64,000 nucleotides of DNA from NCBI GenBank assembly GCA_015057505.1, contig SVEG01000006.1, positions 110,391-174,390 of the forward strand, in the 5' to 3' direction. The first letter of the stretch is position 1, and each line of letters opens with the position of its first letter. Shown here piece after piece: positions 10,024 through 24,542 of the stretch. The position numbers and the translations under genes were made by a program. This stretch comes from Lachnospiraceae bacterium (GTDB taxonomy: Bacteria > Bacillota > Clostridia > Lachnospirales > Lachnospiraceae). A model generated the notes under the pieces. That model ran no database searches. It had not been told where the DNA came from and saw nothing but the letters and a program-made list of their open reading frames with translations.

Positions 10024-10473
10024 ATGACAGATAGCCAAAAATTAGATTTGATACTTGAAAAGGTGGGCGGTCTCGAGGGCAAAATGGATGGCTTTGAGAG
10101 CGGAATGGATAGGCTCGAGGGCAAAATGGATGGCTTTGAGAGCGGAATGGATAGGCTCGAGGGCAAAATGGATGGCTTTGAGAGCAGAATGGATGGTCTC
10201 GAAGGCAAAATGGACGGCTTTGAGAGCAGAATGGATGGTCTCGAAGGCAAAATGGACGGCTTTGAGAGCAGAATGGATGGTCTCGAAGGCAAAATGGACG
10301 GCTTTGAGAGCAGAATGAATGGTTTCGAAGGTAAAGTTAATAAGTTAGAAAATTTATTAATAAAATCTACTTCAGAATTAAAAATGATGGACAAACTGAT
10401 ATTAAGTGAAATTGAGAGGGTTCATGATATTTTGAACAAGCATATATCTGATAAAACAGTACATACAGCGTAA
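10024..10473 (+). CDS. Tandem-repeat coiled-coil protein
   Basis: 149 aa with repeated LEGKMDGFESRMDG 14-mers. Confidence 0.7.
   Translation: MTDSQKLDLILEKVGGLEGKMDGFESGMDRLEGKMDGFESGMDRLEGKMDGFESRMDGLEGKMDGFESRMDGLEGKMDGFESRMDGLEGKMDGFESRMNGFEGKVNKLENLLIKSTSELKMMDKLILSEIERVHDILNKHISDKTVHTA
10072..10323 (+). repeat. Six tandem 42-bp units inside the coiled-coil gene
   Basis: CTCGARGGCAAAATGGAYGGCTTTGAGAGCRGAATGGATRGK at 10072, 10114, 10156, 10198, 10240, 10282. Confidence 0.95.
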
Positions 10474-12540: not shown

Positions 12541-12546
12541 ATAAAA

Positions 12547-12619
12547 CTCCCTCTGTTGGATTCGAACCAACGACACTGCGGTTAACAGCCGCATGCTCTA
12601 CCTACTGAGCTAAGAAGGA
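12547..12619 (-). tRNA. tRNA-Asn (GTT)
   Basis: 73-nt cloverleaf TCCTTCT TA GCTC..GAGC A TGCGG CTGTTAA CCGCA GTGTC GTTGG TTCGAAT CCAAC AGAGGGA G; anticodon GTT; CCA not encoded. Confidence 0.95.
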
Positions 12620-12757
12620 ATAATACATTTTGTAACATCTACAGTATATGCGGATTATTAGAATTCTATACGGAATTAATTATTTTTTGCCGGAATATTT
12701 TAGTTCATTTTGGAAATAATATTGTAAAAATAGTCAGTAAAAAGCGATAAATTTTTA

Positions 12758-12786
12758 TTGACAATGAAATTCTGTTATGATACCAT
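12758..12786 (+). promoter_or_regulatory. Promoter of T-box leader
   Basis: TTGACA - 17 nt - TACCAT. Confidence 0.6.
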
Positions 12787-12792
12787 GATACA

Positions 12793-13020
12793 TCATAAGT
12801 TTGATTCAATACAGACCTCTCCTTTGTGGAAAACTCATCAGAGATGCAGAACCGTGGCTGAAAGTTTTGCTTGGGTAAGTAGTAGGAAGAGTAACACTAT
12901 ATTGATTTGTGGTTTACAACAGTATAATTAAAAGTGGGTGTATTAATACACCAACGTGGGTGGCACCGCGGGATTGATATCTCGCCCCTCGGAAACGATA
13001 AGTTTTCGAGGGGCTTTTAT
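12793..13020 (+). promoter_or_regulatory. T-box riboswitch leader (probable Asn specifier) with terminator
   Basis: Canonical AACGTGGGTGGCACCGCGG T-box; palindromic stem GGTGTATT/AATACACC; terminator 12984-13018; candidate specifier AAC+A at 12893-12896; bulge TGGC complements GCCA of a G73 tRNA. Confidence 0.9.
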
Positions 13021-13058: not shown

Positions 13059-14801
13059 ATGAATATTTACAGAACACATACGTGTGGCGAATTAAGAAAA
13101 GAACACATTAATACTAATGTACGCTTGGCAGGTTGGGTAGATACCATAAGAGACCACGGCGGAGTTATCTTTATCGACTTGAGAGACCAGTATGGTATTA
13201 CACAGGTTGTTGTTAATGATACAGCATTGGTTAACGGTATCGGTAAGGAATTTGTTATTTCTGTTAGCGGTATGTTACAGCTTAGAGACGCAGAGACTGT
13301 TAACATGAAGATAAGCACAGGTGAAGTGGAGCTTAAGGCTACAGAACTTACTGTTCTCGGTAAGTCAAAGAATCAGCTTCCCTTTGAAATCAGCGAGTCT
13401 ATGAACACAAAAGAAGAAATCCGTTTAAAATACCGTTTCCTCGATTTGAGAAATCCGGCAGTTCATAACAATATTGTATTTCGTTCAAAAATTACAAGCT
13501 ATCTTCGTCGTAAGATGGAAGAGATGGGCTTTTTGGAGATTCAGACACCTATCCTTACAGCATCATCACCTGAAGGTGCACGTGACTTCTTAGTACCGAG
13601 CAGAAAGCACCAGGGAATGTTTTATGCATTGCCCCAGGCACCTCAGCAGTTTAAGCAGTTGCTCATGACATCAGGTTTTGATAAGTACTTCCAGATTGCA
13701 CCCTGCTTCCGTGATGAGGATGCGCGTGCAGACCGTTCTCCGGGTGAGTTCTATCAGCTTGACTTTGAGATGGCTTTTGCAACACAGGAAGATGTTTTTG
13801 AAGTTGCAGAGACAGTTTTATATGACACATTCAAAGAGTTCTCTTCAGGCAAATATGTAAGTCCGGCACCGTTCAGACGCATTCCTTACGCAGAGAGTAT
13901 GCTTAAGTATGGTTCAGATAAGCCTGATTTAAGAAATCCTTTAATTATTGAAGATTTGACAGAGTTTTTCTCAGATGTTGATTTTGCACCGTTTAAGAAG
14001 AAACCGGTACGTGGTATAGTGGCTCCTAAGTGTGCTTCAATGTCTAAGTCATTCTTTGAAAAAATGCTTGATTTTGCTATGTCAATCGGTATGAAGGGGC
14101 TTGGATATATTTCTGTTCTTGAAGATATGAAGCTCAAGGGACCGATTGTAAAGTTCTTGTCAGAAGAGAAGCAGGCAGAACTTTGCAAGATGTTGTCACT
14201 TAAGGAAGACGATACATTGTTCTTCATTTCTGACTCACCGAAGGTTGTTGACAAACTTGCAGGTCAGATTCGTACAGAGTTAGGTGTTCGTCTTGATATT
14301 ATTGATAAAGACAGATATGAATTCTGTTTTGTTACAGATTTCCCTATGTTCGGAATTAATGAAGACAGCGGTAATATTGAATTCATGCATAATCCTTTCT
14401 CAATGCCACAGGGTGAGATGGAAGCACTTGAAACAAAGGATCCGCTTGATGTTCTTGCGTATCAGTATGATATTGTATGTAACGGTGTTGAGTTGTCATC
14501 GGGTGCCGTTAGAAACCACCGCCCTGACATTATGTTAAAAGCATTCGAGATTGCGGGATATACACAGCAGGATATTGAAGACAGATTTTCTGCATTATAT
14601 AATGCGTTCCATTACGGTGCACCGCCTCATGCAGGTATGGCACCCGGACTTGACAGAATGGTCATGCTTTTGGCAAACCAGGAAAGCATCAGAGAGGTAG
14701 TTGCATTCCCGATGAACGGAAATGCACAGGACTTGTTGCTTGGAGCACCGAATACGGTAACGGAACAGCAGCTTAGAGAAGTTCATATTAAGCTTAGATA
14801 G
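13059..14801 (+). CDS. aspS: Aspartyl-tRNA synthetase (bacterial type; possibly non-discriminating)
   Basis: 580 aa; MNIYRTHTCGELRKEHINTNVRLAGWVDTIRDHGGVIFIDLRDQYG; GLDRMVMLLA motif 3; operon with gatCAB. Confidence 0.95.
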   Translation: MNIYRTHTCGELRKEHINTNVRLAGWVDTIRDHGGVIFIDLRDQYGITQVVVNDTALVNGIGKEFVISVSGMLQLRDAETVNMKISTGEVELKATELTVLGKSKNQLPFEISESMNTKEEIRLKYRFLDLRNPAVHNNIVFRSKITSYLRRKMEEMGFLEIQTPILTASSPEGARDFLVPSRKHQGMFYALPQAPQQFKQLLMTSGFDKYFQIAPCFRDEDARADRSPGEFYQLDFEMAFATQEDVFEVAETVLYDTFKEFSSGKYVSPAPFRRIPYAESMLKYGSDKPDLRNPLIIEDLTEFFSDVDFAPFKKKPVRGIVAPKCASMSKSFFEKMLDFAMSIGMKGLGYISVLEDMKLKGPIVKFLSEEKQAELCKMLSLKEDDTLFFISDSPKVVDKLAGQIRTELGVRLDIIDKDRYEFCFVTDFPMFGINEDSGNIEFMHNPFSMPQGEMEALETKDPLDVLAYQYDIVCNGVELSSGAVRNHRPDIMLKAFEIAGYTQQDIEDRFSALYNAFHYGAPPHAGMAPGLDRMVMLLANQESIREVVAFPMNGNAQDLLLGAPNTVTEQQLREVHIKLR

Positions 14802-14812
14802 GAGGAGTAATT

Positions 14813-15094
14813 ATGGACGCAAAAACTTTATCAGCATATGAAAATATGGCAAAACTCAGTCTTACGGAAGATGTTCGCCAGTGGGTTATTGATAGCTTTA
14901 ACACTCTGGAAGAGAGCTTTAAGAAGTTGGATGGTATTGATACAGAGGGTGTTGAACCGTTGTTTACGGTACTTGACTTAAAGAATGTATTACGTGAAGA
15001 TGCTTCCGCAAAATTCATTGAAAGAGATGAGTTGTTATCAAACGCTCCCGAAGAATATGACGGATATTTTCAGGTGCCGAAGACATTGGAATAG
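14813..15094 (+). CDS. gatC: Aspartyl/glutamyl-tRNA amidotransferase subunit C
   Basis: 93 aa, operon position and GatC-like sequence (LEESFKKLDGIDTEGVEPLFTVLDLKNVLREDA). Confidence 0.85.
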   Translation: MDAKTLSAYENMAKLSLTEDVRQWVIDSFNTLEESFKKLDGIDTEGVEPLFTVLDLKNVLREDASAKFIERDELLSNAPEEYDGYFQVPKTLE

Positions 15095-15106: not shown

Positions 15107-16141
15107 ATGAAATTCATGATGCATGATGATATTATGGTTGCAGGAAAGGTGTGCACCGGAGGTTCTAAATTCCTTGCAGGTTTTAAATCACCTTTAAGTG
15201 CCAGAGTATATGAGAAATGTTTGGCTCACGATATGGAGTTTGAAGGATTTCTTACTCCCGATGAGTTTAGTATTGATAATTTGTTTGATGAGAAGGATGA
15301 ATTGGATTCAGCCGTAGTTGCATTAACAGAAGGCAAATGTGATGTTGTACTTTGCAATGATGTGTTCGGCAAGCTTCGTCGCCAGGCTCCGGCTAACGGA
15401 CTTATTTATATTCATCCCTCATATGGTACTGTTTCAAGATTTGGTTTGATGCAGGGTGTTGCATCAATGGACCAGATTGGTATCCTTTGCCGTAATCTTG
15501 AAGAAGGTATCGAAGTGTTAAATGTTATTTCAGGACATGATGTAAGTGACGGAACAAGCCTTCCCGCAGCAACTTATGCTTATGCAGCTAAGGCTGACAA
15601 GGCAGTTAAAGTGGTGGCTGATTCCAAGACTTTCCCTGTTGAGATTGAGGCAGGGAACATAGAGATGAAATATGCAGATTGTTTTGCACAGATTTTCTAT
15701 ATTCTCGGAAGTGCCGAGATTTGTAATAATACCAACCGTTATGACGGTGTTAAGTTCGGATATCGTGCAGAGGATGTAAACGGTATTAATGACCTTTATG
15801 TAAGATCACGTACAGAGTCATTCGGTCGCAATCTGCAGCTTGCTTCAATTGCAGGTTGTATGGTGCTTTCAAAAGAGTACTATGACGGTTTATATAACAA
15901 ATCAATGCAGATTCGGCGCTTGGTTAAGGATTATTATACAGAAATCCTGGATAATGCGGATGTAATTGCTCTTCCTGCAAAAATGGATGGAGCAACAAAG
16001 TATGAGCAGGTTGCATTATATGCTCTTGCACCTTTGTGTGGTTTTGCAAGTGTTTCCATGTTATATAATAATAAACCGACTCAGTTTATCTGTAAACGTA
16101 ACGGTGAAAATGCAATGTTTGCATTGGCACAGGGTAAATAG
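15107..16141 (+). CDS. GatA-like amidase-fold protein, shortened and missing catalytic motifs
   Basis: HPSYGTVSRFGLMQGVASMDQIGILCRNLEE..LNVISGHDVSDGTS and RYDGVKFGYRAE...SFGRNLQLASIAGCMVLSKEYYDGLYNKSMQIRRL align with GatA; the GSSGGSA and DTGGSIRQP blocks are absent or substituted. Confidence 0.85.
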   Translation: MKFMMHDDIMVAGKVCTGGSKFLAGFKSPLSARVYEKCLAHDMEFEGFLTPDEFSIDNLFDEKDELDSAVVALTEGKCDVVLCNDVFGKLRRQAPANGLIYIHPSYGTVSRFGLMQGVASMDQIGILCRNLEEGIEVLNVISGHDVSDGTSLPAATYAYAAKADKAVKVVADSKTFPVEIEAGNIEMKYADCFAQIFYILGSAEICNNTNRYDGVKFGYRAEDVNGINDLYVRSRTESFGRNLQLASIAGCMVLSKEYYDGLYNKSMQIRRLVKDYYTEILDNADVIALPAKMDGATKYEQVALYALAPLCGFASVSMLYNNKPTQFICKRNGENAMFALAQGK

Positions 16142-16152
16142 GAGGGGTTGAG

Positions 16153-17583
16153 ATGAAAAATTATGAAGTAGTAATCGGACTTGAGGTCCATGTAGAATTG
16201 GCAACAAACTCAAAATTATTCTGTTCATGTAGTGCTAAATTCGGAGCAGATGCAAATGAAAATGTGTGCCCCGCCTGTGCAGGTATGCCGGGTATGCTTC
16301 CGGTTGCCAACAAAAATGCAATTGAACTTGGTATAGCGGCGTCTCTTGTTACAAACAGCCGCATTACACCTGTTATATCATTTGATAAAAAGAACTATTT
16401 TTATCCGGATCTTTCATGCGGTTACCAGATTACGCAGCTGTTTGCACCTATCTGCCGTGATGGTCGTGTAGAGATAGAGACAAGCAAGGGAACAAAGACA
16501 ATTACCTTGAAGCAGATCCATATTGAGGAAGATGCGGGTAAGTTAGTACATTCAAGAGGTGTTTCACTTGTTGATTATAACCGTTGTAGTGTTCCGCTTG
16601 TAGAAATCGTAAGTAATCCTGACTTCCGTAGTGCGGAAGAGGTTGTGGCTTATCTTGAGAAATTACGTGCGCTTCTTACTTTTGCAGGCGTTTCAGACTG
16701 TAAGATGCAAGAAGGTTCAATGCGTTGTGATGTTAACCTTTCCGTAAGAGAAGTAGGCAGTGATGTTCTGGGAACACGTACAGAAATGAAGAACATGAAC
16801 TCCTTAAAGGCGATTGTTCGTGCTATTGAGTATGAGACACAGAGGCATATTGATGCTCTTGAGACAGGCTGCGAGGAACTTGTTCAGGAAACACGTCGTT
16901 GGGATGATAATGCGGGACAGAGTTTCTCTATGCGTAATAAAGAGAATGCAACTGATTACAGATATTTCCCGAATGCAGACCTTATGCCCATTGTAGTTGA
17001 CGAAGAATGGATTAATGAGGTTAAATCACGTTTGCCTGAGAGCGCGCATGACAAGTATGCACGTATGACCAAGGAACTTGGTATTGCTGAAATTGATGCT
17101 AAGAAGATTACAAGCAGTAAGAATCTTTCGGATATTTTTGATGCACTTATGTCAAAGGGTCTTCCTGCAAAGGATGTTGTTGCGTGGATTATCACAGAGC
17201 TCTTGTCTTTGGATACAGATGAGAATAAGTCTTATGATGATATCAGCATTAACTGTGATTCCTTTGCAAAACTTATAGAGCTTGTTAACAATAAAGAGAT
17301 TAACCGTACAATAGCCAAGAAGATTTTCGTGCTTATTTATGAGAAGGATATTGATCCGGTTGCATATGTCAAAGAGAATAATCTCGGCATGGTATCTGAC
17401 ACAAGCTTTATTGATGATGCGGTTACCGCAGCGATGAATGAGAATCCTGATTCAGTTAAGCAGTATCGTGAGGGTAATGCCAAGGTAGTCGGCTTCCTTA
17501 TGGGTAAGGTAATGCAGAAGACTGCAGGTAAGGCAGATCCTTCTGTAGTAAGAGAAATATTGATGTCTAAGCTTGATAACTAA
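16153..17583 (+). CDS. gatB: Aspartyl/glutamyl-tRNA amidotransferase subunit B
   Basis: 476 aa; MKNYEVVIGLEVHVELATNSKLFCSC. Confidence 0.95.
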   Translation: MKNYEVVIGLEVHVELATNSKLFCSCSAKFGADANENVCPACAGMPGMLPVANKNAIELGIAASLVTNSRITPVISFDKKNYFYPDLSCGYQITQLFAPICRDGRVEIETSKGTKTITLKQIHIEEDAGKLVHSRGVSLVDYNRCSVPLVEIVSNPDFRSAEEVVAYLEKLRALLTFAGVSDCKMQEGSMRCDVNLSVREVGSDVLGTRTEMKNMNSLKAIVRAIEYETQRHIDALETGCEELVQETRRWDDNAGQSFSMRNKENATDYRYFPNADLMPIVVDEEWINEVKSRLPESAHDKYARMTKELGIAEIDAKKITSSKNLSDIFDALMSKGLPAKDVVAWIITELLSLDTDENKSYDDISINCDSFAKLIELVNNKEINRTIAKKIFVLIYEKDIDPVAYVKENNLGMVSDTSFIDDAVTAAMNENPDSVKQYREGNAKVVGFLMGKVMQKTAGKADPSVVREILMSKLDN

Positions 17584-17594
17584 GATATGTACAG

Positions 17595-17635
17595 ATATGT
17601 GATGTATACAAAAGTGTGCATCACATATTTTGCTT
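17595..17635 (+). terminator. Terminator-like hairpin after gatB
   Basis: ATATGTGATG/CATCACATAT followed by TTTGCTTT. Confidence 0.6.
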
Positions 17636-17711
17636 TATGCGAGCCGACTATTGATTTATCTGTCAAAAAATTTTATAATATATAGAACATACAAAAGAAG
17701 GAGATTTTTGA

Positions 17712-18716
17712 ATGAGGAATGAAGTATTTATAAGCTATTCAAGTATTGATGCTGAATGTGCAAAAAGGGTAATTGATTATGTAGAGAAAAATGGTTACAA
17801 TTGTTATATTGCATCCAGGGATATTTCCGGTGGTCTGCACTATGCGAAGGATATAGTTAATGTAATTAACAACTGTAAAATAGTTGTTCTCATTGCATCT
17901 ACCCATAGTAACGGGTCAGAACATGTACTGAATGAAATTGATATTTGTGTAGAAAAGAAAAAGACAATCATTCCGCTTTTTATTGAGGACTTTGAGGTTT
18001 GCGATGAATTTCGTTACTACTTGGGCAGAAGTCAAAGAGTTATTGTTGAGGATGGAGATTTGAACAGTGCATTACCGAGACTTTTAAGCTCCATTAAAAA
18101 CAAGTACCCAAAAGAAATTGAAAAAGCAACTTCTGTTGTACAGGGTAATGACATTGAAGAAAGTAAAAAGACAAAAACTGTCTTCGAATACGATTCTACA
18201 AGAGGAATTATGATTAACCCTGAAGACAGGGTGCGCAATATCAGCTTCAGACAGGATACTTTCCTGCATATGATGGGCGAGATTTATTCTGATATGGCAA
18301 AGGAAATCGGTGAGGAGCATGCAAGTAAGGTGTATTATGATTGCGGACACAGCGGTGGAAGTAATTTTGGCGAACGTTTAAATCAGATGCTGGATAATGA
18401 TAACCTGTCGATTGCGGAAAAACTGCAGAAGTGGTGCGAGTTTGACTCTTGTGTGGGATGGGGTAAGTTTAATACGGATGTTACCTTGGATGAAGAGAAT
18501 GATACATTGACGGGAACTTTGTCAATTAATGAGTGTTTCTTTGTTGATAAAAAGCATAAACATAAAATATGTTCATACATTGTTGGATATTGTACGGGCG
18601 TTATTGAGGAATTGTTAGGTGAGGTTGAGGTTATATTAACATGCAAATCATGCCCGATGAAGAATAAATTTAAGTCTGAGTGCGTATTTGACATTGCATT
18701 GGTTATGGAGGATTAA
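17712..18716 (+). CDS. TIR-domain protein with C-terminal V4R-like (4-vinyl reductase type) domain
   Basis: N-term EVFISYSSIDAECAKRVIDYVEKNGYNCYIASRDISGG...SEHVLNEIDICVEKKKTIIPLF (TIR); C-term FDSCVGWGKF...CSYIVGYCTGVIEELLGEVEVILTCKSCPMKNKFKSECVFDIAL (V4R-like). Confidence 0.75.
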   Translation: MRNEVFISYSSIDAECAKRVIDYVEKNGYNCYIASRDISGGLHYAKDIVNVINNCKIVVLIASTHSNGSEHVLNEIDICVEKKKTIIPLFIEDFEVCDEFRYYLGRSQRVIVEDGDLNSALPRLLSSIKNKYPKEIEKATSVVQGNDIEESKKTKTVFEYDSTRGIMINPEDRVRNISFRQDTFLHMMGEIYSDMAKEIGEEHASKVYYDCGHSGGSNFGERLNQMLDNDNLSIAEKLQKWCEFDSCVGWGKFNTDVTLDEENDTLTGTLSINECFFVDKKHKHKICSYIVGYCTGVIEELLGEVEVILTCKSCPMKNKFKSECVFDIALVMED

Positions 18717-18718
18717 TT

Positions 18719-19714
18719 TTGAAAATATTAGTTGTATTTACAGGCGGAACAATTGGAAGTGTTGTAAATGACGGCTATATTTCGCCGTCAGATAATACAA
18801 GATATCAGCTGATAGAGAAGTATAATTCATTAGCAAAGAGAGAAGTAGATTTTGAGTATGATGAGCCGTATACATTGCTGAGCGAGGATGTTACAGGAGA
18901 ATATCTGGGAAAATTGGGAGAATGCCTTTTGGCACATAAGGACAAAGATTATGACGGAATCATTGTTACACATGGTACAGACACAGTCCAGTATTCTGCA
19001 GCAAGCATGGCGTATTTGTTGCAGGGTATTAACAAGCCGGTAATATTTGTGTCGAGTAATTATGTTCTTGATGACCCGAGAGCCAACGGATTGGATAATT
19101 TCGCGTATGCGGTTGAGTTTATTGTAAATAAACAGGGAACAGGTGTGTTTGCCGTTTATCGTAACGGCGACGGAGTTGTTTATGTGCACAGGGGCAATAG
19201 GCTTTTGCCGCATTTGCCTTGTGATGATAATTTGTATAGTGTTGGGGATATGTATTACGGTCACTATGAGAAGAACAGATTTGTTCCTAATCCGAATTAT
19301 CGTGTGACAGCAAGTGATAAAAAGTATGAGATGTCATTGCCTAAGAAGTGGAATTCGGGAATTCTTCGTATTTTTCCTTATCCGGGTATGGAATATCCGA
19401 AATTGTCTGAGCAGACAAGAGCAGTTATTTTAGACAGTTATCATTCCGGAACTATTTGCAGTATTACACCGGGTATGAAAGAATTTTTTGCTACGGCAAA
19501 AGCTAAGAATATTCCGGTATTTCTTGCAGGAAGTAATCCCGGCACGGATTATGAAAGTGTAAAGGAATGGAAGGAGCTGGGAGTGTATACACTTCCTCAG
19601 GCGTCACCTATCGCAATGTACATTAAATTATGGATGATAATGGATTTGGAAGGTATATTGGACGGAATGTCTGTAAATGACATTATGATGCTTTCTGTAT
19701 CGGAAGATTTTTAA
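18719..19714 (+). CDS. L-asparaginase
   Basis: TTG start after GGAGG; MKILVVFTGGTIGSV (TGGTIG), IIVTHGTDTVQYSA (HGTDT), 331 aa. Confidence 0.9.
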   Translation: MKILVVFTGGTIGSVVNDGYISPSDNTRYQLIEKYNSLAKREVDFEYDEPYTLLSEDVTGEYLGKLGECLLAHKDKDYDGIIVTHGTDTVQYSAASMAYLLQGINKPVIFVSSNYVLDDPRANGLDNFAYAVEFIVNKQGTGVFAVYRNGDGVVYVHRGNRLLPHLPCDDNLYSVGDMYYGHYEKNRFVPNPNYRVTASDKKYEMSLPKKWNSGILRIFPYPGMEYPKLSEQTRAVILDSYHSGTICSITPGMKEFFATAKAKNIPVFLAGSNPGTDYESVKEWKELGVYTLPQASPIAMYIKLWMIMDLEGILDGMSVNDIMMLSVSEDF

Positions 19715-19866: not shown

Positions 19867-20961
19867 ATGAAAAAAGTTTGTATAATAGCCGGAATTATTA
19901 TTATTGCGATAATAGCCGGAATATTTGTAATTAAAATTAATGAGGCGGATACGGAGGTTACGGACAAAACCACTATGGTCGGACTTCTTTTGAACGGAAG
20001 TAAAGAGGACAAGAACTGGTGTCAGTCACATTATGAAGGACTCGAGAAAACTGCAGGGGAACTTAATCTTGCAATAGTTTGTAAGGAATACGTTACGGAA
20101 GAGAGTGTTTCTGCAGTGATTGATGAACTTGTTGAAGGTGGCTGTGAGATTATTATTGCCAATTCATTTGGGTTTGGTGAAGGAGTGGAAAAAGCTGCAG
20201 AGAAATACCCCGAGATTTATTTCTTTCACGCAACAGGTGTGGGAGAAGGAAGAAATCTTTCGAGTTATTTCGGAAGAATATATCAGATAAGGTATTTGTG
20301 CGGTATTGTGGCAGGTCTGCAGACTGAGACAAATGAAATCGGCTATGTTGCGGCGTTCCCTATTTCGGAGGTTAACCGTGGAATTAATGCTTTTACACTT
20401 GGTGTAAAAAAGGTAAATCCCGATGCAACGGTTTATGTAAGATGGACTGATTCATGGGGAGACGACGATGTAACCGGCGATGCAACGACGGCTTTGCTTG
20501 ATGCGCATAATATAGATGTGCTTGCAATGCATACGGATTCCGTAAGACCGCTTGACATTGCAGAGGCAAGAGGAGTGGAGGCGATAGGCTACAATGCGGA
20601 CAACAGCAGATTTTACCCCGGTACATATCTTACAGCGGCTGTGTGGGACTGGGAGAAGTTTTACACGCCAAACATATTAAAGTGCCTGCAGGGTAAGTTT
20701 GAAGGATATCATTACTGGGAGGGAATCGATTCCGGTATGATTTCACTTGCACCGTTTACAGAGAAGGTAAAGAATGGCACGCAGGCGATTATTAACCGTG
20801 AGATAGAATTACTTAAAAGCGGTACATTCGATGTGTTTTACGGTGAAATAGTTGATAATAAGGGCAATGTTCGTATAGCTGCGAATGAGAGCATGACGGA
20901 CAATGCAATGCTCAATGAATTTGACTGGTATGTGGAGGGAGTTATAATAGATGAGGAATAG
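19867..20961 (+). CDS. BMP-family (basic membrane protein/PnrA-like) ligand-binding protein, membrane-anchored
   Basis: N-terminal TM segment; [69 protein letters not shown]. Confidence 0.85.
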   Translation: MKKVCIIAGIIIIAIIAGIFVIKINEADTEVTDKTTMVGLLLNGSKEDKNWCQSHYEGLEKTAGELNLAIVCKEYVTEESVSAVIDELVEGGCEIIIANSFGFGEGVEKAAEKYPEIYFFHATGVGEGRNLSSYFGRIYQIRYLCGIVAGLQTETNEIGYVAAFPISEVNRGINAFTLGVKKVNPDATVYVRWTDSWGDDDVTGDATTALLDAHNIDVLAMHTDSVRPLDIAEARGVEAIGYNADNSRFYPGTYLTAAVWDWEKFYTPNILKCLQGKFEGYHYWEGIDSGMISLAPFTEKVKNGTQAIINREIELLKSGTFDVFYGEIVDNKGNVRIAANESMTDNAMLNEFDWYVEGVIIDEE

Positions 20962-22048
20962 CAAGGTGAGACAAAAAATATTACTCGTTATGATGGCGTT
21001 CTTAATTGTTGTTATTGCAGGCATTATAATTATGACAGGTTATAAAAAGTCTGTTGCACCAAAAATCGGATTAATCATAACAGGCAGTAGAACGGATGCA
21101 GGCTGGAACGGTGTGCATTATCAGGGTGTGTCATATGCCTGCGATAAGCTGGATGCAAAGCTTATTGTGAAAGAAAATGTTCCTGAGAATTCAGCGCTTT
21201 GTGCGGAAGCAATCAGGGAACTTGTCGATGACGGTGCAGGGATGATCATTCTTTCAAGCTATGCATATCCGGAAATGGTTAAGGATGTAATTGAAAGCTA
21301 TCCGGAAGTGGCTTTTTACGGCAGTTCGGCAGAATATTATGCAGATAACATGACATCGTATTTCGGAAGAATGTATCAGGCAAGATATCTTGCAGGAATT
21401 ATTGCCGGTATGACTACCAAAAATAACAGGATAGGCTATGTTGCCGCTATGCCCAACATAGAAGTAAGCAGAGGTATTAATGCATTTACGCTGGGGGTAC
21501 GAAGTGTAAATCCTGAGGCTGTCATAAATGTTGTATGGACAGGTTCGTGGGATAATGAAAAAGCAGAGACGGAAGCGACAAGCAGATTAATTAACGATAA
21601 AGACATAGATTTGGTTACATACCATCAAAATCGTCACTATGTTGCACAGACTGCAGATGCAGCAGGGATATATTCCATAGGATATAATGAGGCGGAGAAT
21701 AATCTGTCGGAGAAGTATCTTACCGCGGCAGTATGGAACTGGGAGGCACTTTATTACGGCATAGTTAGGGAATATGTGCTAGGTGAAGGCAACGACGTGA
21801 AAAGACATTGGTTCGGTATTAACACCGGAGTTGTAGGATTATCGGAGTATTCTTCGGCAATAAACGAAAATGTGATAAATGCGGTTGAAGTAGCAAAAAG
21901 CGATATCCTTGCCGGAAAGGATGTTTTTTCGGGAGTGATTTATGATAATAACGGACAACTTCGTTGCGATGAAGGGGAATCAATAAGCGATGAAATGCTG
22001 CTTGAAAAACTGGATTGGTTTGTTGATGGGGTGGAGATTTATGAATGA
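20951..22048 (+). CDS. Second BMP-family ligand-binding protein
   Basis: Paralog of the preceding [79 protein letters not shown]. Confidence 0.85.
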
Positions 22049-24542
22049 GAATAATTTTAAAAGGAGTCTTAGAAATACAGCTGCCGTTGTGGTTACCAGT
22101 TTTATTGTTTTGATTATAGTCTGCACTGCGATGGGTATGAAAATAAGGGATATTGTAGATGTACACATGGAGGAACATGTTGCTGAACAGGGTCAGATGA
22201 TTTCGAGGATTATTGACAACAGTTTTGCAGATGAACTCAGATTATTAAGTGATGCCACGGTTTTTGTTGATTTGGAGAACGGAAGTCTTGGACGAATTTT
22301 TTCTGAAGAAGAAGGTATAAGCTATGGTGTACTCAGAATTAACGGTGAACCGACTGTTGGGGAAAAGCTGGATTTTAGAGAATATGAAGGCATTTTTGAG
22401 GCAATTCACGGTAATGCTTCTGTAAGCTGCAGTAATAAAAGTGATAAGGTTTTGTTCGCAGTGCCGGTATATAACGGTGCCAATGTTAAATATGTATTGT
22501 ATAAGCTGTATGACAGCAGTGTACTTGCCAAAAAGATAGATATATCGTGTTTTGGCGGGAAAGGAGACTGTGTTATTACAGATATTGAAGGCAATATAAT
22601 TCTTAAAGAAATAGACAGCAGGATTGATAAAGAATTTTTTGAGGAAAAAAATAATGCAGAGGCTTTTGGCAGAATAAGTGATAAGATGAATATCAGTTCA
22701 ATTGCGGCAAGTCGAAGTAAAAGCCCGTATGGGGATAATGTTTTGTTTGCGGCAGAGACTGATTATTCGGGCCTTTATGTTATGGGATATGTTCCGGCAG
22801 AAGATGTAAGAGGAGACATTTCGCTCATTGTTCCGCTTGTTTTGTGGTGCTTTGGCCTTTTGTGGCTTTTGCTTCTTATTGTTACGGTTTATTTAATAGG
22901 TGCAGAGAAAAAGGTCAAAGAAAGTGATGAGCTTCTTCGTGCCAAAGAGATTGCAGAGAAGGCGAATAAGGCAAAAAGTGATTTCCTTGCCAATATGTCA
23001 CATGAAATCAGAACTCCCATTAATGCGGTCATAGGAATGAATGAGATGATACTTAGGGAGAGTGGGGACAAGAATGTGTTGGAATACGCTTCCAATATTG
23101 AAAGTGCCAGCCGCAATTTGCTTGATATTATAAATGACATTCTGGATTTTTCAAAGATTGAGTCCGGTAAAACAGAAGTGGTTGAAAGTAACTACAGATT
23201 GGGTGAGCTACTCAATGATGTTGTTAATATGATGGAAATGAAGGCGTCGGACAAGGGACTTAATTTTGAGGTGATTGTAGATGGAAATCTGCCGTCCGGG
23301 CTTTGTGGTGATGATGTAAAGATTAGGCAGATAATGTTAAATCTTTTGAATAATGCAGTTAAATACACGGCAAAGGGTGCGATACGTTTAAGAGTAAGCG
23401 GTGAAGATGTCACAGCAGATTCGGTAACGCTTAAGGTCGCCGTGGAAGATACCGGAATCGGAATTAAAGAGGCAGATAAAAACGGTTTGTTTGAAGGGTT
23501 TAGAAGACTTGATCTGGAGAAAAACAGGAATATCGAAGGAACGGGTCTGGGACTTGCGATTACAAGAAAATTCCTTGACATGATGGGCGGTAGGATTGAG
23601 GTGGAAAGCTCATATGGAGAGGGCTCTTCATTTATATTCTGGGTTGCGCAGAGAATTATTGACACTGAGCCACTTGGAGATTTTGAAGAGAATTACAGGA
23701 AGCAAAAGGAAGTGGATTACAAGTACAACCAGACTTTTGTAGCACCTGATGCGAAGATACTGGTAGTTGACGATAATCAGATAAATCTTCTTGTTGTAAG
23801 AAAGCTTCTTGAAAAGACGCAGATACAGATTACGGAGGCTATGAGTGGCAGGGAAGCCTTGGAGCTTATGCAAAGCAACAGATATGATATTGTTTTTCTA
23901 GACCATATGATGCCGGAAATGGATGGTATTGAGACTTTGAAGCTTGCAAGAAAACAGGATGGCGGCATGTGCAGGGATGTTACGATTATTGCACTTACGG
24001 CAAATGCAATTTCAGGCGTAAGGGAAATGTATTTGTCAGAAGGTTTTGATGATTACATCAGTAAGCCCATCAGTATAAAACAGTTGGAAGAGCTTTTGAT
24101 GAAATATTTGCCGGCAGGGAAAATAAGCTTTTGTATAGAGAAAGAGACGGTGGCGGTTCCGGAAGAAGAACCTGCAAATTTGTTGGATTATAACAGAGGT
24201 CTCCATTACTGTGCGGGAAGCAAAGAAGTGTATGCGGAGATTGTTAAAATGTTCTGCGATTCGTACGAAAAGAAATGTGTCGAGTTGGAGACGTATTTTA
24301 CAGGCGAGGATTGGAATAACTACACAGTCAGTATTCATGCCTTAAAATCCAATGCCCTTAATATAGGAGCAGGAAAACTTGCAGATTCGTGTTTGGAGCT
24401 TGAACTTGCAGGCAAGAAAATCAGGGCAGGAGAAGATGTGACCGGGCATACAGAGTTTATTGAGAAGAATCATGAGGCGGCTATACGGTTGTTTGGTGAG
24501 ACGATAAAGGTTGCAGAAGAGTATTTAGGGAGGACAAAATGA
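22041..24542 (+). CDS. Hybrid sensor histidine kinase (TM/extracellular sensor-HisKA-HATPase-REC-Hpt)
   Basis: [50 protein letters not shown]...[13 protein letters not shown]; Hpt [14 protein letters not shown]. Start at 22041 ([10 protein letters not shown]) preferred over 21990. Confidence 0.92.

Follow-up and report, generated by a model that had tools for sequence, protein, structure and literature searches.

How does a tRNA-dependent amidotransferase obtain ammonia when its GatA subunit has no glutaminase site? To our knowledge, all characterised enzymes of this kind carry their own ammonia-producing subunit, either the glutaminase GatA or the asparaginase-like GatD. The question is raised by an operon in a 64,000-nucleotide stretch of a gut-type clostridial (Lachnospiraceae) genome, here called the window (GCA_015057505.1, contig SVEG01000006.1, positions 110,391 to 174,390), in which a short GatA-like gene, gatA*, lies between gatC and gatB. 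Sequence comparison suggests, and we think it rather likely, that the operon serves tRNA-dependent Asn synthesis under the control of a T-box, and that its GatCA*B complex no longer hydrolyses glutamine and is fed with ammonia. The features of the operon, in their order along the window, are as follows.

12546..12620, minus strand: tRNA-Asn (anticodon GTT), divergent from the operon (ARAGORN, Rfam)
12758..12786, plus strand: promoter-like site of the operon, TTGACA-17-TACCAT (consensus match only)
12792..13014, plus strand: T-box leader (RF00230 match, core, specifier, terminator)
12893-12895, plus strand: putative Asn specifier AAC (alignment)
12958-12970, plus strand: T-box core GGGTGGCACCGCG, exact
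12984-13014, plus strand: T-box terminator
13059..14801, plus strand: aspS2, encoding a bacterial AspRS; RDHGG signature as in non-discriminating enzymes (profile, signature)
14813..15094, plus strand: gatC (TIGR00135, 77.9 bits, cut-off 47.1)
15107..16141, plus strand: gatA*, GatA homologue without the glutaminase active site (profile, alignment, model)
16153..17583, plus strand: gatB, active-site residues kept (NF004012, 605 bits, cut-off 338; residues)
17593..17630, plus strand: terminator-like hairpin, probable end of the gat operon

GatA* and its missing glutaminase residues

The gatA* ORF encodes 344 aa without interruption. A preliminary description of this DNA, made from its letters alone, had called it a pseudo-GatA far shorter than normal inside a gatCAB operon; gene order and homology uphold this, and the family to which it belongs is distinct in length and residues from true GatA. 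An AGGAGG-type ribosome-binding-like site precedes each of gatC, gatA* and gatB. Since gatC ends only 12 bp upstream of gatA*, the absent N-terminal ~75 residues of GatA* are not encodable there. GatA* scored 168 bits against TIGR00132, below the curated GatA cut-off of 481, and 88 bits against the Pfam Amidase profile. Its best PDB match by alignment was S. aureus GatA (2df4, E=1e-36). In this alignment the catalytic K79 falls on H6 of GatA* and the nucleophile S178 on K89, the cis-Ser block GGSSGGSA is deleted, and CNDVFGKLRRQ (residues 83-93, DNA 15353-15385) stands where GatA has GSDTGGSIRQP. The earlier claims that the catalytic Lys is missing, that GSSGGSA is absent and that the nucleophile motif is replaced are thus borne out by the alignment. 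The equivalents of the glutamine-binding R358 and D425 (S. aureus numbering, checked against the alignment) are gone as well. The glutamine-binding role of this Arg/Asp pair comes from the GatFAB structure, where the residues are R334 and D418 (PMC4027206). Their loss goes beyond the preliminary description. So do three findings reported below: a T-box of Asn type, a second AspRS that appears non-discriminating and a widespread lineage with a single origin.

An AlphaFold2 model of GatA* reached pLDDT 89 and pTM 0.90, and its top PDB matches were bacterial and mitochondrial GatA (TMq 0.82-0.87). GatA* is a GatA by descent and fold, not by catalytic definition. GatB and GatC, described earlier as normal, score above their profile cut-offs. 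The locus resembles GatCAB in that gatC, gatB and a GatA-fold subunit share one operon, with GatC present and the kinase/amidase site of GatB intact; unlike GatCAB, its GatA-fold subunit lacks the catalytic Lys, the cis-Ser block, the glutamine-binding Arg/Asp pair and the N-terminal segment.

The T-box leader, AspRS2 and the charging set of the genome

At the gathering threshold, Rfam reported no T-box in the leader. The T-box emerged on reading the leader by eye and rerunning the search at a relaxed threshold, where the match to RF00230 was 47.4 bits (E=1.3e-9), under the Rfam gathering score of 93. In 29 of the 33 gatA* loci whose upstream DNA is visible, the T-box core occurs with no more than one mismatch, 62-208 nt before aspS2, and the AAC triplet and a following purine align at the expected place in nearly all leaders of such loci. 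This suggests that the leader senses tRNA-Asn. T-box leaders were also found 5' of aspS in some operons with a complete GatA, which indicates that the control is older than the loss in GatA. A tRNA-Asn gene precedes aspS2 in a relative, G058, too. The U1-A72 pair of the tRNA-Asn was set aside as evidence: it fits recognition by GatCAB but also occurs in bacteria without GatCAB.

AspRS2 carries RDHGG, as do the mycobacterial, H. pylori and P. aeruginosa Asp/Asn enzymes; a residue at this site governs AspRS discrimination. The second, hisS-linked AspRS of the genome has RNLGS, near the RDLGS of E. coli. By this signature, AspRS2 would be of the non-discriminating type. One subclade of gatA* operons has aspS2 and gatC joined in a single gene, as at L043:5517-7589; the long aspS frames of L080, L081, L082 and L115 are fusions of the same subclade.

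The preliminary description had offered two alternatives, a true GatA elsewhere that joins the complex or a structural, channelling or regulatory subunit. The window genome (G000; 2.86 Mb, 32 contigs, 99.25% complete) contains no second GatA or GatB in its assembly. Its sole other amidase-signature protein has its own triad motifs and looks secreted and membrane-anchored. A true GatA elsewhere in this genome is therefore unsupported, and the structural or channelling role is the alternative favoured. No AsnRS scored above the cut-off in G000, where the matches were LysRS and the two AspRS, and no GlnRS was found, the single GlxRS being a 488-aa GluRS-type protein; in a 32-contig draft these missing synthetases could be gaps. 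The top asparagine-synthetase-domain match (PF00733) was weak in G000, at 88 bits, against >220 in most relatives. Similarly, G058 (90% complete) has gatA* only and no AsnRS, with GlnRS present. Many relatives retain a complete GatA (9 of the 19 gatA* genomes), AsnRS or GlnRS, so the gatA* complex is not essential there; in such relatives the gatA* operon is probably an additional inducible route. In the sister genome G001, of the same genus as G000 and 75% complete, AsnRS is present and the recovered part holds no amidase-family protein and no GlnRS.

An additional inducible route to Asn-tRNA under a T-box has been described for the AspRS2/GatCAB of Clostridium acetobutylicum (Saad et al. 2012, as cited in PMC4206432). 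The likeness extends to the T-box leader, the second AspRS linked to a gat operon and Asn-tRNA synthesis. A possible difference lies in the GatA of the gatA* lineage, which is glutaminase-dead by sequence.

A conserved GatA lineage in Clostridia

The distribution in relatives, which the preliminary description had proposed to look at, was examined with profile searches that covered 397 family-level and 392 order-level genomes. Short triad-less GatA genes turned up in 9 genomes of the family, and the order added about 10 more. Among GTDB representative contigs, a scan recovered 80 loci of two clearly separate kinds: 27 carry short triad-less genes, every one in a Clostridia-type record, and 53 carry full-length genes with K, S and S intact. 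In all, about 45 loci in Clostridia, from many assemblies, encode a glutaminase-less GatA; with the losses repeated in each member, they are more than chance. We found no description of a triad-less GatA family in the open-access papers searched.

Residues were compared in a joint table of 56 true GatA rows and 47 gatA*-type rows, some of the latter being contig-end fragments. Lys79, cis-Ser154, Ser178, Arg358, Asp425 and Tyr309 are invariant in the true GatA rows. The gatA*-type rows have Asp, Glu or His at position 79, and none retains Arg358 or Asp425, both of which are present in 56 of 56 true GatA. Ser178 survives in seven of them, G014 included, without the remaining triad residues. The VSR Arg, the RYDG Asp and the TRTEG Arg are kept in every gatA*-type row that covers them. 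As pocket residues are lost and other core residues kept, what has been lost lies mainly in the glutaminase pocket and the N-terminal segment.

The GatB partners of these proteins form one clade of 42 (support 100/99), which adjoins the GatBs of complete Lachnospiraceae-type operons, and 100% of bootstrap trees of GatB require a single change to the triad-less GatA. Tested active-site residues are intact in all 42 partners. R79K and S94T separate them from all 23 other GatBs, and G146S occurs in 40 of the 42. Between close pairs, dN/dS of gatA* is about 0.10-0.19, with dS near saturation in these pairs; this is two to four times the value for gatB and far below neutrality. gatA* is under purifying selection. 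Together, these results define a conserved, single-origin GatA lineage without glutaminase.

The score far under the GatA cut-off could also be taken to mean that gatA* is a decaying pseudogene or a sequencing artefact. This can hardly be right, given an open frame with its own ribosome-binding-like site, about 45 homologous loci from many assemblies that form one clade, the low dN/dS and a confident fold. A frameshift, which the preliminary description had named as a possible refutation, or a truncation artefact was rejected on the same frame, site and loci.

Possible sources of ammonia

In the ammonia-fed route that we favour, a build-up of uncharged tRNA-Asn would lead the leader to permit readthrough into the operon. 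AspRS2 would charge Asp onto tRNA-Asn, GatB and ATP would activate the resulting Asp-tRNA-Asn, and free ammonia would amidate it to Asn-tRNA-Asn. GatC, GatA* and GatB presumably assemble as a complex, in which the amidase fold of GatA* would hold GatB and GatC as a scaffold and form the entrance to the ammonia channel. Since the glutaminase site is lost and yet the subunit is conserved in dozens of related genomes, GatCA*B probably uses free ammonia, and free ammonium would be the simplest donor. Yeast mitochondrial GatFAB, whose glutaminase site is complete, unlike that of GatCA*B, can amidate with NH4Cl, and did so more when its glutaminase scaffold was trimmed (PMC4027206). In G000, GatCA*B may also make Gln-tRNA-Gln. 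A bolder proposal, to which we give somewhat less than even credence, is that G000 obtains Asn-tRNA and Gln-tRNA from GatCA*B alone, with the translation of two codon families wired directly to free ammonium, and that an ammonia-dependent tRNA amidotransferase, with GatA as purely a scaffold and channel, has arisen in a clade of gut Clostridia.

A second protein might instead feed ammonia to the GatA*/GatB channel. This is the chief rival reading, and the DNA 3' of the window operon contains a candidate.

17651-17679: promoter-like site before the TIR gene
17712..18716, plus strand: TIR-domain protein, probably a separate unit (PF13676, 61 bits)
18719..19714, plus strand: asparaginase/GatD-like protein without the triad Lys, a possible but not required partner (profile, residues)

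The TIR-domain protein gave weak Thoeris/TIR matches; its gene and the asparaginase-like gene right behind it (17712-19714) come after the terminator-like hairpin and have their own promoter-like site. Of the 44 gatA* loci, 9 have an asparaginase-like gene at a distance of up to 3.5 kb, compared with 0 of 56 true-GatA loci (Fisher p=0.0004), a comparison in which the control loci are taxonomically broader, 17 of the 44 loci end at a contig edge and five of the nine linked genes had served to build the profile. The position of the gene varies; it directly follows gatB in G014, L167 and L199. Coordinates of linked genes are as follows.

L043:10261-11349, L082:4752-5909, L110:299-1372, L114:115-1149: asparaginase-like genes
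L167:2590-3702, L170:15584, L180:6379, L199:10884: asparaginase-like genes
L042:5519-6436: acetamidase/formamidase FmdA_AmdA (PF03069), between aspS2 and gatC of the G058 gatA* operon

The linked asparaginase-like proteins retain the TGGT and HGTD motifs, and in all nine Gln, Pro or another residue replaces the triad Lys, giving NRLLP, SRLRQ and the like versus VTKTH in canonical enzymes. They are possibly a second degenerate enzyme, or have a different chemistry. The window protein scored 90 bits against the GatD profile, below the cut-off of 310. Asparaginases of the linked type occur in 49 of the 397 family genomes, including five of the nine with gatA*, and so are not specific to the gatA* system. 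The asparaginase had first been considered as a general partner because it lies 3' of gatB in the window, and directly so in G014; it was downgraded because most loci have no such gene, the triad Lys is absent and the window gene has its own promoter-like site.

A donor of this kind, asparaginase-like as in archaeal GatD or, at one locus, an acetamidase/formamidase, would account for the linkage in several arrangements, the similarity to GatD and the FmdA_AmdA protein in G058. The missing Lys, the 35 of 44 loci with no asparaginase-like gene nearby and the position of the window gene beyond the terminator-like hairpin make it unlikely. The locus is like archaeal GatDE in its GatB/GatE-type kinase-amidase and in the asparaginase-like gene sometimes near it; unlike GatDE, it retains gatC and gatA* and shows no dedicated, competent GatD, the asparaginase-like protein lacking the triad Lys and being linked in only 9 of 44 loci. 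That GatCA*B is instead a regulatory or quality-control complex, which has no amidase activity in vivo and acts by binding mischarged tRNA or by modulating a complete GatCAB, would suit the relatives with a complete GatA and those with AsnRS and GlnRS. We regard this as rather improbable: the active-site residues of GatB are fixed in 42 of 42 partners, the operon has its own AspRS under an Asn-type T-box, and both G000 and G058 lack AsnRS as well as a complete GatA that could be modulated. Loss of the amidase site is by itself silent on the origin of the ammonia, and an unrelated glutaminase or glutamine amidotransferase domain could replace it with glutamine still the donor; the listed locus flanks hold no conserved glutaminase-type neighbour, which makes this very improbable.

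For the ammonia-fed complex, AsnA, the ammonia-dependent asparagine synthetase, offers a functional analogy only: it amidates aspartate with ammonia, acts on free aspartate and is not homologous to GatB. With the glutaminase deleted and its channel partner kept, the gatA* lineage would allow a test, set up by nature, of the reasons for ammonia channelling. It would also test the roles of GatA apart from glutamine hydrolysis, and the coupling of nitrogen status to decoding in ammonia-rich gut bacteria. A missing glutaminase may go unnoticed in metabolic reconstructions in which GatABC is scored as a route of amidation (e.g. PMC9026213).

Elsewhere in the window, positions 10024-10473 encode a 149-aa protein of repeated MDGFES/MDGLEGK units, a tandem-repeat coiled-coil-like sequence. 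Downstream of the asparaginase-like gene, 19867-24542 appears by eye to encode two tandem paralogous BMP-type (basic-membrane-protein-like) substrate-binding proteins and, after them, a hybrid sensor kinase.
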